From: a bacterium 336/3
GTDB lineage: Bacteria; Bacteroidota; Bacteroidia; Cytophagales; Thermonemataceae
Direction: 5' to 3'
Assembly (NCBI GenBank): GCA_001281695.1
Contig: LJIE01000001.1
Coordinates: 2,494,586-2,558,585 of the forward strand
Length of the DNA: 64,000 nucleotides
The notes beneath the pieces are model-generated. The model did no database searches and was not told the origin of the DNA. It saw nothing but the letters and a program-made list of their open reading frames with translations. Each line of letters starts with the position of its first letter. The stretch's first letter is position 1. Below are positions 40,839 to 46,367 of this stretch, piece by piece. A program made the translations under genes and the position numbers.

Positions 40839-41564
40839 TTATTTTATAAACTGATATGTTTCTTGGATATTGACTTCTGTGAAAACCTCCTCGACACTTC
40901 CTATATCTACTAGCTTTCCTTCTTTGAGAAGCAGGAGGAAGTCGAAATATTTAGGAACTGTTGAAAGTTGGTGATGTACCATCACGATAGTTTTTCCTTC
41001 ATTGACTACTGATGTTTTGAGTAAATCAATCAGGAGTTTTTCAGTTGCAACATCTACACCCACAAAAGGCTCATCGAATAAATATAAATCTGCTTCTTGT
41101 GCAAAAGCTCTTGCTAAAAATACTCTTTGTTGTTGCCCTCCAGAAAGTTCAGAAATTTGTTTATCAGCCTTATCAGCCATTCCTACTTTTTCAAGATAAC
41201 TCATGGCTTTTTGTTTGTGTTGTTTAGTGATTCTCCCAAACAAACCAAATTCTTTGTAAAGTCCCATAAGAGCCACCTCCAATACAGAAGCAGGGAAGTC
41301 CCAATCAATGCTGTCTTTTTGTGGAAGGTATGCAATTTGATTTCTAACTTCTTTCAAACTTTTTCCAAATATTTGAATAATACCAGATGAGTTTGGTATC
41401 AATCCCATGATGGCTTTGAGTAATGTAGATTTTCCTGAACCATTTGCTCCTACAATTCCTATCATCTGTGAGGAAGGGATTTCACACGAAAAATCCTGAA
41501 ATATTTTATGTTCAAAATATCCTACATGAATATTTTTTAATACAATGGCGTTTTGTTTATTCAT
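40839..41564 (-). CDS. Metal ABC transporter ATP-binding protein
   Basis: A 241-residue ABC ATPase. Walker A is GANGSGKST, the Q-loop lies in YLPQKDSID, the signature is LSGGQQQRVFLARA and Walker B is LYLFDEPFVGVD, followed by the H-loop in MVHHQLS. It energises the two permeases encoded directly downstream. The sequence fits the MntB/ZnuC/SitB group. Spacing to both neighbours is six bases, so the operon is tightly packed. Confidence 0.95.
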   Translation of the reverse strand: MNKQNAIVLKNIHVGYFEHKIFQDFSCEIPSSQMIGIVGANGSGKSTLLKAIMGLIPNSSGIIQIFGKSLKEVRNQIAYLPQKDSIDWDFPASVLEVALMGLYKEFGLFGRITKQHKQKAMSYLEKVGMADKADKQISELSGGQQQRVFLARAFAQEADLYLFDEPFVGVDVATEKLLIDLLKTSVVNEGKTIVMVHHQLSTVPKYFDFLLLLKEGKLVDIGSVEEVFTEVNIQETYQFIK

Positions 41565-41570
41565 AGCTTT

Positions 41571-42494
41571 TTACTTCAATGCCTCTACAATTTTATCTAC
41601 ATTGGCTTTGTACATTCCAATATAAGTCCCTTCGGGAGTACCGAATGTTCCCATTGCATCGGAGTACAAACCTTCAATAATTTTGATTTTTTTCCCTTTA
41701 CTTTCTACACCTTTTACAACAGCTTCAATACCTTTGGGAGAGATAGACGTTTCTACAAAAACTGCTTTGATATTTTGATTGGTGATAAAATCAACTAAAT
41801 CTTGAATATCTCTTAAACCATAATCTGTGGTTGTTGAAATTCCTTGCAAAGCTTTTACTTTAAAATTATAAGCTTTTTCAAAATATCTAAAAGCATCGTG
41901 AGAGGTGATGAGTACTCTTTGTGATACAGGAATTTCTTCTATTCGCTTTTTAGTATATACTTGCAACTTCTTTAATTCTTCAATATATTTTCTTGAATTC
42001 TCCTCAATCATATTTTTTTGAGATGGATATTTCAATTTTAAGTTGTTTGTTACAACTTCCGAAACCTCTATCCATAAATTAATATCAAACCAAATATGAG
42101 GGTCATGTAGTTTTTCATTGATAGGTATTAGTTTATTTTCTTTTAAAGAATCTCCAGCACTGATGACCATTTTCTTTTTTGAGATTTTCTCTAATATATA
42201 ATTCATTTTTCCTTCAAGATGCAATCCATTACAAATAATTAAAGTTGATTTATTTAACTTTTGTAAATCTGTTTGAGAAAACTTGTATAAATGAGGATCA
42301 ACTCCTTCACCCATTAGGTAATTTACTTCAAGAGAGGGAGGTGCAATATTTTTAGTTATATCATACAACATTCCTGTTGTAGCAAGAACATAGTTTTTAT
42401 TTTCTTGAATATCTCTGCAAGAAAGCATTTGTAATACGCTACAGAAAAGCAGCAACCATTTTAATTTCTTTTTTATTTTATAATAAAACTCCAT
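41571..42494 (-). CDS. Metal-binding lipoprotein of the Mn/Zn importer
   Basis: A 307-residue solute-binding protein of the ZnuA/TroA/MntA group. A lipoprotein signal ends near MLSC26. The four metal ligands fit the family: His68 in DPHLYK, His133 in DPHIWFD, His199 in SHDAFRYF and Asp279 in YSDAMG. There is no long histidine-rich loop of the kind typical of many zinc-specific ZnuA proteins, which leans towards manganese or iron (inference). It overlaps the regulator gene by 17 bases. Confidence 0.93.
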   Translation of the reverse strand: MEFYYKIKKKLKWLLLFCSVLQMLSCRDIQENKNYVLATTGMLYDITKNIAPPSLEVNYLMGEGVDPHLYKFSQTDLQKLNKSTLIICNGLHLEGKMNYILEKISKKKMVISAGDSLKENKLIPINEKLHDPHIWFDINLWIEVSEVVTNNLKLKYPSQKNMIEENSRKYIEELKKLQVYTKKRIEEIPVSQRVLITSHDAFRYFEKAYNFKVKALQGISTTTDYGLRDIQDLVDFITNQNIKAVFVETSISPKGIEAVVKGVESKGKKIKIIEGLYSDAMGTFGTPEGTYIGMYKANVDKIVEALK

Positions 42495-43140
42495 ATATCT
42501 TTTCTGAAATTTCTTTAGATAGAGTTGTATTCCTATTTTCGTTGATAATTACATCTATCGAATTATCATAAGTATTTTTATCACATATTTCAATCAAAGC
42601 TCCAATGCTTACAGATATTTTACTCAAATATTGAAGTAGAGTTGAAGAATCATCTGTAATACTTTTTACTTGTATTTTTTGTTGATTTGTACAACTATTG
42701 AGACATACTAGATTTTCAGTTACTGGAAACTCTCCATGTTCATTAGGAATAGGTTCTCCATGTGGATCAAATGTTGGACAATCTAAAAATTTATATAATC
42801 GTTCTATAAGCAAACCAGATTGAATATGTTCAAGTTGTTCAGCGACATCGTGAACTTCATCCCAAGAAAAGTTAAGTTTATCAACTAAAAAGGTTTCCCA
42901 AAGCCTATGTTTTCTAACAATTTCAATAGCGATTTTTTTTCCCTCATTTGTAAGTTTTACACCTTGATACTTGGCATAATCAATTAGTTTTTTTTGGTTG
43001 AGCTTTTTAAGCATATCACTTACCGAAGCAGGATTGATTTCCAGTTTCTTAGCAATGTCATTGGTTGTGATTTCCAAAGAATGAGGGTAGGAGAGAGAAA
43101 AAATAATTTTCAAATAATTTTCTTCTGTATAACTTAGCAT
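42478..43140 (-). CDS. DtxR/MntR family metal-dependent repressor
   Basis: A 220-residue regulator, with the ATG at 43140 chosen because it gives the usual start MLSYTEENYLKIIF. The winged helix-turn-helix (ITTNDIAKKLEINPASVSDMLKKL, about 22-45) is followed by the metal-binding/dimerisation domain (HRLWETFLVDKL, HDVAEQLEHIQS, CPTFDPHGEPIPN) and a C-terminal FeoA-like SH3 segment. It would repress the downstream importer genes when metal is plentiful. The gene is first in the operon and autoregulation is likely, since candidate operators lie upstream. Confidence 0.9.
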   Translation of the reverse strand: MLSYTEENYLKIIFSLSYPHSLEITTNDIAKKLEINPASVSDMLKKLNQKKLIDYAKYQGVKLTNEGKKIAIEIVRKHRLWETFLVDKLNFSWDEVHDVAEQLEHIQSGLLIERLYKFLDCPTFDPHGEPIPNEHGEFPVTENLVCLNSCTNQQKIQVKSITDDSSTLLQYLSKISVSIGALIEICDKNTYDNSIDVIINENRNTTLSKEISEKIYGVLL

Positions 43141-43176
43141 CTTGAATCTATAAAGTATATCTTGAATATCATTTGA

Positions 43177-43206
43177 CAAATATATACATAATAAAGGAGT
43201 AAACAA
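43177..43206 (-). promoter_or_regulatory. Promoter of the metal-importer operon
   Basis: On the minus strand, TTG at 43206-43204 is followed after 19 bases by TATATTTG at 43184-43177, a canonical Bacteroidota promoter. The regulator ATG lies 37 bases downstream. The plus-strand palindrome ATTTGACAAAT at 43171-43181 overlaps the -7 element. Confidence 0.75.
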
Positions 43207-44253: not shown

Positions 44254-44283
44254 ATTTTTTAGATGTTAGATTTAAATATTTAG

Positions 44284-44330
44284 AAACCTTATAGGTTTTT
44301 AACCAGAAAAAATGAACCTATAAGGTTTTA
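44284..44330. repeat. Inverted repeat of AACCTATAAGGTT type
   Basis: AAACCTTATAGGTT (44284-44297) is mirrored by AACCTATAAGGTTT (44315-44328) around a 17-base loop; TTTTT follows the first arm. It lies 30 bases after dapD and may terminate it, and it shares its arms with the repeat at 657-710. Confidence 0.65.
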
Positions 44331-44347
44331 ATATAATCCTAAAAAGT

Positions 44348-45568
44348 ATGAATACAGAAAATGCTATTTCAAAAGACAAAAACCTTCTTATTGTTTTATC
44401 AGGAAATGAAAAGAAGAGCCATGAACTTCTTGATTTAATAGAAAATTTCTGTGGAGCTGTTATCGAATCCCCTTCGCAAATGCAGGGGGATTTGGTACAA
44501 AAGAAAATATATGCCTGCGGAGATATATCCAAAATCAAGGATTTTAAACTTTCTGTCCCTTTTTATATTATCAGGGAAATATCTTATCATTTTGAAGATT
44601 TGATGGATATAAATTTTGTGAGTATTGGTAATGTTCCTGTTGTGGTCTGTAATGCAGGTGTCTTTTTTAGACGTTTTTTTGAGGATGAGAACGATCATTT
44701 TAATAAAATCAGACTGGAACATCAATTTCAGAATTTAACTGAATCTACCAAACCTGGAATGGCTTTTAGAAAGGGTATCTATCTAACAGAAGTATTGAAA
44801 GAAATCACAAGCGAACAAAATGAGTTGTTGCATTACAGACTTTTGAGATGCTCCAGTAATTTTTCAGGACCTACAGAAAACTTTCGTGATACAGACCTGC
44901 GAATCATGAATTCTATGAATGAAGCTATTCAATATGTTTTTGAGAAAAAAACGCATTTAAACCACGTATTAGCTCAGATTTATGAAAACAAGAAGGAAGA
45001 CAACTCAAAAGAGAAAAAGGCTAAAATTAAGGCACATTCTGACAAAACAAAGGACATGCCTTCAGAAGGGTTGATAGCTTTTTGTACATTTTATGAAAAA
45101 ACAGGCTTTCAGCACCTCAAACCTTCAGAAACTGACAGATACGACTGGGTTTTGGGAAAGATTAGTGGGCTTACAACACTTCATTTCAAACTGAAGAATT
45201 CGGTAAAAGATGAAACGTTAGCTAAAGAGTTTACAGTAACACTCTATCCTAATTCTGTTTTTTTTATTCCACTTTCTACCAACAGATTATACACCCACGA
45301 AATAAAGCCTTCTATTTTGAATATAGACAAAATCCCCACCCGAATGGGATATGTGGCTCGGTGTTCCAATAAAGAGGCTGTATTTATGAATAATGAAGTG
45401 TATATCAAGGAGAATGGAGAGCTTATCAAACTGCAAGCCATGCAACAGGAAGGAATGGCTCATCTGAAAGAAACCTACAGAATAGAAAACATATCGGAAG
45501 ATGCTGTTGAATATGGTAAAATTGATTTTAGCATGAATTCTGGGGATTATCAGAAACCCATTTACTAA
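44348..45568 (+). CDS. 2OG-Fe(II) oxygenase-like protein, N-terminally extended
   Basis: A 406-residue protein. The C-terminal 260 residues are homologous to the next gene and read as a double-stranded beta-helix oxygenase: the HxD of the iron site is H230-S-D232 (KAHSDKTKDM), the distal His is His317 (YTHEI), and the 2-oxoglutarate Arg is Arg338 (YVARCSNK). AlkB-like proteins share this order, but I could not confirm a subfamily. The extra N-terminal 140 residues contain a possible Rossmann-like start (LLIVLSGNEKKSHELL) and are unknown. The gene is one base from the downstream paralogue, so a single transcript is likely. Confidence 0.72.
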   Translation: MNTENAISKDKNLLIVLSGNEKKSHELLDLIENFCGAVIESPSQMQGDLVQKKIYACGDISKIKDFKLSVPFYIIREISYHFEDLMDINFVSIGNVPVVVCNAGVFFRRFFEDENDHFNKIRLEHQFQNLTESTKPGMAFRKGIYLTEVLKEITSEQNELLHYRLLRCSSNFSGPTENFRDTDLRIMNSMNEAIQYVFEKKTHLNHVLAQIYENKKEDNSKEKKAKIKAHSDKTKDMPSEGLIAFCTFYEKTGFQHLKPSETDRYDWVLGKISGLTTLHFKLKNSVKDETLAKEFTVTLYPNSVFFIPLSTNRLYTHEIKPSILNIDKIPTRMGYVARCSNKEAVFMNNEVYIKENGELIKLQAMQQEGMAHLKETYRIENISEDAVEYGKIDFSMNSGDYQKPIY

Positions 45569-45569
45569 T

Positions 45570-46367
45570 ATGGAACATCAGGGTTTTTATCAGTGGATAT
45601 TGCCTTTAGAAACGGACTTATTCCAAAGGCTTTCTGATTCTGTGGAATTGGAAGATGTAGGAAAAGGCAGAAAGGGCAATCATCTGGTTGATTGCGGAGA
45701 ACGGGGTATTCCCATTGTCCGAACAACCACTTTGTATAATACACCAGCCTGTAAATTTTCAGAAATACACCATAGCCTTGTAGAGAGTATCCGAAACAAA
45801 GCTATGGAGGAAATAGGGGATATATCCCTGCATTTCAACAATGCCCTGATAGAAATTTATGAAAGTAGTTATTTTAAGATGAAATACCATTCAGACCAAG
45901 CATTAGATTTGGCTGAAAACTCTTATATTGCCCTTTTTTCGTGTTATGAAAAGCCAAATGATATTACAAAGAATGTGGTAAGAAAACTCCAAGTCATCCA
46001 TAAAACAACACAAGAAGAATTTGAATTAGTTTTAGAAAACAATTCTGTTGTTTTATTCTCGTTAGCCACCAATACACAGTTTCAACATAAAATCACATCA
46101 AATCCTTCTCAAAGCATAAAAGGTGGCACAATTGAAAACAGATGGCTGGGCGTTACGTTCAGACTCTCCAAAACGTTTATTGAGTTTAAGGAAAATCTGC
46201 CTTATTTTGAAAATGGAGAATTATTGACACTGGCTCAAGAAGAAGAAAGAAAAGCCTTTTTTCTGCTTCGTGGACAAGAAAATAATTCTACCGATTTTGT
46301 GTATCCACACCTCACATACACCATCAGCCCAGCAGATATGATGATGCCGAAGGTATTTAAAGGATGA
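45570..46367 (+). CDS. 2OG-Fe(II) oxygenase-like protein
   Basis: A 265-residue protein of the same family as the gene just upstream. The aligned pair of segments is FNNALIEIYESSYFKMKYHSDQ here and LNHVLAQIYEN...KIKAHSDK upstream. The iron ligands would be His107 and Asp109 (YHSD) and His173 (FQHKI), with Arg198 (TFRLS) holding 2-oxoglutarate. The order and spacing fit AlkB-type or related non-heme iron oxygenases. The substrate is unknown: nucleic acid, protein and small-molecule substrates are all possible. The gene starts one base after the previous stop codon. Confidence 0.75.
   Translation: MEHQGFYQWILPLETDLFQRLSDSVELEDVGKGRKGNHLVDCGERGIPIVRTTTLYNTPACKFSEIHHSLVESIRNKAMEEIGDISLHFNNALIEIYESSYFKMKYHSDQALDLAENSYIALFSCYEKPNDITKNVVRKLQVIHKTTQEEFELVLENNSVVLFSLATNTQFQHKITSNPSQSIKGGTIENRWLGVTFRLSKTFIEFKENLPYFENGELLTLAQEEERKAFFLLRGQENNSTDFVYPHLTYTISPADMMMPKVFKG

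Follow-up and report, generated by a model that had tools for sequence, protein, structure and literature searches.

A near-obligate pair of AlkB-fold genes, linked to a compact endonuclease V in Bacteroidota, as a candidate two-subunit base oxygenase

Two adjacent genes of the bacterium 336/3, here called A and B, encode paralogous proteins whose predicted structures belong to the AlkB class of Fe(II)/2-oxoglutarate (2OG) oxygenases. They were found in a 64,000-nucleotide stretch of the genome, referred to as the window. Of 222 related loci, the best 80 were analyzed, and in these the pair occurs in at least five bacterial phyla and is inherited almost inseparably, a breadth that went beyond what was known to the initial annotation, which had been made from the letters of the window alone. 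Our preferred reading, held at about even confidence, is that A and B are the two subunits of a single AlkB-like nucleic acid base oxygenase, a heterodimer in which A would be the catalytic subunit and B a non-canonical partner, with a modified base of DNA or RNA as the substrate.

Organization of the A-B locus

Gene A (positions 44348 to 45568 of the window, plus strand) specifies a 406-amino-acid AlkB-fold oxygenase with an extra N-terminal domain, as judged from its open reading frame (ORF), its AlphaFold model, and the match of that model to ALKBH2. Gene B (45570 to 46367, plus strand) specifies a 265-amino-acid AlkB-fold partner protein, recognized by its match to PF13532 and by the ALKBH2 match of a fusion model described below. 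A single base lies between the stop codon of A and the start of B. The two products are paralogous beyond chance, with 27% identity over 245 columns in BLASTP (E = 3e-11), and the profile of the A family aligns with that of the B family over 237 columns (E = 1.2e-12, probability 98%). The description of the genes as adjacent paralogues one base apart is therefore borne out by the ORF coordinates, by BLASTP, and by the profile comparison.

The 5′ neighbor of A is a tetrahydrodipicolinate N-succinyltransferase (dapD-like) gene and the genes 3′ of B are on the opposite strand, so the pair stands alone in the window genome. An inverted repeat located between the dapD-like gene and A (44277 to 44335), with a 14-base perfect core, 21-nt arms that are 86% complementary, and a 17-nt loop, occurs only once in the genome and is a candidate terminator or operator. 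Close upstream of the pair there is also a minus-strand cluster (40839 to 43206) in which inspection by eye suggests genes for a metal-dependent regulator, for a lipoprotein that binds metal, and for an ABC ATPase, putatively of the manganese/zinc uptake type. Two more AlkB-family genes with stronger PF13532 scores are present elsewhere in the genome (L093 and L094, located at G000:C1:3344615-3345130 and 3077671-3078096); thus, A-B is not its sole AlkB-type system.

Predicted folds of A and B

Both products had been proposed to be Fe(II)/2OG-type oxygenases, with structure prediction suggested as a check. The predicted structures agree with this proposal and are, more specifically, AlkB-like. 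The AlphaFold model of A, based on an alignment of 62 sequences, had a pLDDT of 91 and a pTM of 0.92. Its best match in the PDB was human ALKBH2 (Z 17.2, rmsd 3.1 to 3.3, 190 residues), covering A residues 95 to 342, which correspond to an AlkB-like double-stranded beta-helix domain at positions 44630 to 45373 (plus strand). The model matched human ALKBH2 and ALKBH3 at Z ∼16 to 17, FTO at Z ∼15, and AlkB at Z ∼13. At the level of sequence, the A protein of the window has no trusted match to any family, with none to PF13532 above the gathering cut-off, and weak matches to this family were found in 45 of 62 A relatives (best E = 6e-5). B scores 36.4 bits against PF13532 (2OG-FeII_Oxy_2, the AlkB family), above the cut-off of 31.2, and when a naturally fused A-B protein was modeled, its B part matched ALKBH2 with a Z of 17.4 (rmsd 2.4, 172 residues). 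Because the models of A and of the B part both match ALKBH2 at Z ∼17, A and B are both predicted to be AlkB-fold proteins. In two of the related loci the matched frame contains one stop codon, within the A gene of L058 and within the B gene of L030, which may reflect either decay of that copy or an error in sequencing.

The N-terminal 140 residues of A had been set apart as having no recognized family. The N-terminal profile found nothing below an E value of 0.15 among PDB sequences, and the region itself proved to be shorter. The match between the model and PDB structures places the start of the catalytic fold near residue 95, so the 140 residues comprise a small alpha/beta domain of ∼94 residues (44348 to 44629, plus strand), delimited by the secondary structure of the model and by conservation, and the beginning of the AlkB fold. 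Residues 1 to 94 are poorly conserved in sequence. The order of strands and helices in this domain, together with a few weak Pfam matches, prompted a comparison to BRCT; the hhalign score of 17.7 did not exceed that of decoys, which reached 20.6, and we assign no family to the domain.

Active-site residues of A and B

The residues of B were placed by profile alignment, as distinct from structure superposition, against 26 canonical AlkB relatives of the same order; those of A were placed against B by the same method. In AlkB, N120, Y122, and N206 have roles in 2OG binding. Arg204 of AlkB forms a salt bridge with the C5 carboxylate of 2OG (PMC7467159), and Arg210 is the residue that distinguishes the AlkB family (PMC8508711). 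An Arg is present at the R204 position in 26/26 of the canonical AlkBs.

A possesses H230 and D232 of the HxD iron motif (45035 to 45043), the distal iron ligand H317 (45296 to 45298), and R332 and R338 at the R204 and R210 positions (45341 to 45361), and all five positions are conserved in 62/62 rows of the alignment; Q210 lies at the N120 position and Y212 at the Y122 position. Carrying this complete Fe(II)/2OG active site, A should be the subunit that performs the oxidation. The iron ligands of B, H107 and D109 (45888 to 45896) and H173 (46086 to 46088), are likewise conserved in 66/66 rows, and R198 at the R210 position in 65/66. The iron ligands and the Arg that had been named in each protein (R338 and R198) were thus located where the initial annotation put them, but its claim that both proteins keep the full catalytic set fails for B. 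The R204 position is occupied by Trp in 66/66 rows (W192; W192 to R198 span 46143 to 46163), the N120 position by Glu in 66/66 (E95, 45852 to 45854), and the N206 position by Gly in 66/66 (G194). All of these features are on the plus strand. An ENGEL tail shared by the two products had also been noted; the motif is indeed found in both proteins but adds little, because the exact string is not conserved among relatives, and in A, positions 355 and 356 are conserved in only 56% and 47% of them.

Given the Trp at the R204 position, we file B as an AlkB-fold paralogue and not as a proven 2OG enzyme. Judging from the alignment, selection acts strongly to preserve the metal site of B, but B is unlikely to bind 2OG in the canonical manner. 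Since the residue that clamps the C5 carboxylate is lost while the iron site is kept, B would most likely serve as a structural or substrate-gripping partner; alternatively, its site may use a different co-substrate. METTL3-METTL14 offers a functional analogy to such an arrangement, as it consists of two homologous subunits, one catalytic and one non-catalytic, with a degraded cofactor site in one of them. The resemblance lies in the logic of two homologous halves; the fold and the chemistry are different, and B, unlike the METTL case, still keeps a metal site.

The conservation of B also bears on the possibility that both subunits are active oxygenases, which would act on the same nucleic acid substrate either one after the other or on opposite strands of a duplex, with 2OG bound differently by B (e.g., via R198, K174, or R138). 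R138 is invariant and residue 174 is Lys or Arg in all 66 rows, and such strong purifying selection on the metal site and its invariant triad would be odd for a pure scaffold. Nevertheless, W192, G194, and E95 are equally invariant at the positions that hold 2OG in AlkB, and we consider two active subunits rather unlikely.

The canonical base-recognition residues that follow the HxD motif (D135 in AlkB) are apparently not kept in the pair, so that the substrate may be a different one or something other than a nucleic acid.

Pairing, fusion, and distribution

One genome per species was scanned for related loci, and the best 80 of 222 were fetched. A search for the same gene pair in other genomes had been recommended, and the pair is kept: in 79/80 of these loci the gene order is unchanged, with B immediately 3′ of A. 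The sole exception among the best 80 (L045, 9998 to 11266) has A without B downstream, and the catalytic residues of this A look intact. The pairs in this set come from Bacteroidota, Actinomycetota, Cyanobacteriota, Pseudomonadota, and Planctomycetota. In most actinobacterial pairs the two genes overlap by 17 to 20 bases, and in Bacteroidota they are mostly 0 to 25 bases apart. In a gammaproteobacterial metagenome-assembled genome (MAG), A is joined to B in one uninterrupted ORF of 662 amino acids (L085, 9986 to 11971).

The distribution of the pair is rare and patchy, and A and B always occur together in both genome samples that were analyzed. Matches to A and full-strength matches to B fall in the same 4 of 59 order relatives, including the window genome, and in the same 3 of 395 genomes of the phylum (2/394 besides the window genome). 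The pairwise distances of A and B are correlated (r = 0.94 overall; within the Bacteroidota-like set, r = 0.90), and 0/2000 permutations gave a value as high. The tree of A splits deeply into a clade that is mainly actinobacterial and a clade dominated by Bacteroidota, and the Cyanobacteriota and Pseudomonadota rows fall inside the latter. This placement fits the movement of the pair between phyla as a unit, with mis-binning of MAGs a possible explanation for some of the rows. Plasmid matches were found in Embleya and Nonomuraea, in a stretch without annotation.

To model the two proteins together, the L085 fusion was folded with a 115-row alignment that included ten A-B pairs read through their intergenic stop codons. 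The model had a pLDDT of 92 and a pTM of 0.83. We estimate that the pTM would be ∼0.6 if the ∼406- and ∼256-residue parts had no defined mutual placement; the value obtained is thus suggestive of a defined arrangement of A and B. The initial annotation had left the choice between a heterodimer and sequential modification. With near-obligate adjacency, a natural fusion, and a confident fusion model, a physical heterodimer appears to be the best reading, and sequential action is its rival, as weighed above. When compared with viral structures, the fusion model was best matched by AlkB-like proteins of giant viruses, among them two Sylvanvirus 2OG oxygenases (260 and 333 amino acids) and others of Klosneuvirus and Pithovirus.

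Linkage to endonuclease V

In 17 Bacteroidota loci from several families, the pair adjoins a compact gene (∼167 amino acids) resembling endonuclease V (EndoV). The gene is directly 3′ of B in 16 of these loci and 5′ of A in one; it is again directly 3′ of B in genome G015. Three members tested against the EndoV family PF04493 scored 42.2, 33.0, and 38.3 bits, above the cut-off of 23.4. The linked gene product falls ∼50 residues short of the EndoV chains of known structure that it matches. The compact EndoV type was detected in 8/59 order relatives, including 4/4 of those with A-B, a co-occurrence with a hypergeometric probability of 1.5e-4 when counted by genome and 2.8e-3 when counted by genus. 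In the window genome, the EndoV gene is not beside the pair but ∼440 kb away, and in the fetched actinobacterial loci no EndoV gene was found beside the pair. In genome G056, which lacks A-B, a gene of this compact EndoV type lies 6 bases downstream of a canonical AlkB gene (L166, 4901 to 6091). This EndoV type has thus come to lie next to AlkB genes of two kinds, which favors a nucleic acid role, and the linkage points to base repair or editing.

In Bacteroidota, the A-B unit would work with the compact EndoV, whose role would be to introduce nicks in nucleic acid at purines that are deaminated, otherwise unusual, or unrepaired. With a partner of this kind, the pair would most likely remove or oxidize a base modification in DNA or RNA. 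A more specific proposal, which we regard as possible though doubtful, is that of an obligate heterodimer with one catalytic head and one metal-binding, 2OG-blind head, encoded in a three-component operon with EndoV and directed at a base modification that no known AlkB handles.

The neighborhood of the pair also bears on a quite improbable alternative, in which the two genes would provide an enzyme that tailors or catabolizes a small molecule or a protein residue, with the AlkB fold reflecting ancestry and EndoV a neighbor effect. Recruitment of 2OG oxygenases to such tasks is common, many matches among the best 80 of 222 loci are in Streptomyces and relatives, and the base-recognition residues, as described above, are seemingly not kept. 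However, flanking genes vary from locus to locus outside close relatives, with no recurring biosynthetic neighbors, and the EndoV linkage extends across several families and is accompanied by the separate AlkB-EndoV operon of G056. Lipoprotein and acetyltransferase genes that neighbor the pair in Chryseobacterium were considered as operon members and set aside, as they are confined to one lineage.

The patchiness (2/394 other phylum genomes), the spread over several phyla, in which rows from Pseudomonadota and Cyanobacteriota nest within the Bacteroidota clade, and the nuclease neighbor would all suit a horizontally moving defense or DNA-marking module that alters invading or own bases, with EndoV as its nuclease arm. 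We judge this very improbable, because the PADLOC models, searched at E values up to 1, matched neither A nor B nor EndoV, phage and viral collections gave no matches, and no methyltransferase or toxin neighbor was seen to recur. A phage or viral origin of the genes was rejected separately, as sequence matches were absent from phages and from IMG/VR.

Relation to known AlkB systems

Bacterial AlkB proteins were reportedly divided by van den Born et al. in 2009, in work cited by PMC3265494, into groups 1A, 1B, 2A, and 2B. A and B share with the nucleic acid dealkylating 2OG oxygenases AlkB, ALKBH2, and ALKBH3 (PF13532) the predicted fold (ALKBH2 Z ∼17), the HxD...H triad, and the Arg at the R210 position, and A alone shares the Arg at the R204 position. 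They differ from these proteins in that two paralogues are encoded as a unit, and sometimes as one polypeptide, in the extra N-terminal domain of A, and in the Trp and Glu that B has at the R204 and N120 positions. FTO, the human m6A demethylase of the AlkB family, is matched by the model of A over residues ∼100 to 406 (Z ∼15), a range that takes in part of the C-terminal region of A; no sequence match to FTO was found, and FTO, unlike A-B, consists of one chain, which has a C-terminal domain of its own.

AlkB homologues have been described as a single-protein repair system (PMC3265494), and we found no description of an AlkB gene pair or of an AlkB-EndoV operon in the open-licence literature; one may exist elsewhere, above all in the 2009 classification. 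The pairing and the loss of the 2OG-binding Arg from B point to a two-subunit enzyme that appears not to have been described. If this is true, the conserved two-gene unit of at least five phyla, which is naturally fused in one locus, lacks the 2OG Arg in one subunit, and is linked to EndoV, would give oxidative base repair or editing an architecture of a new kind.
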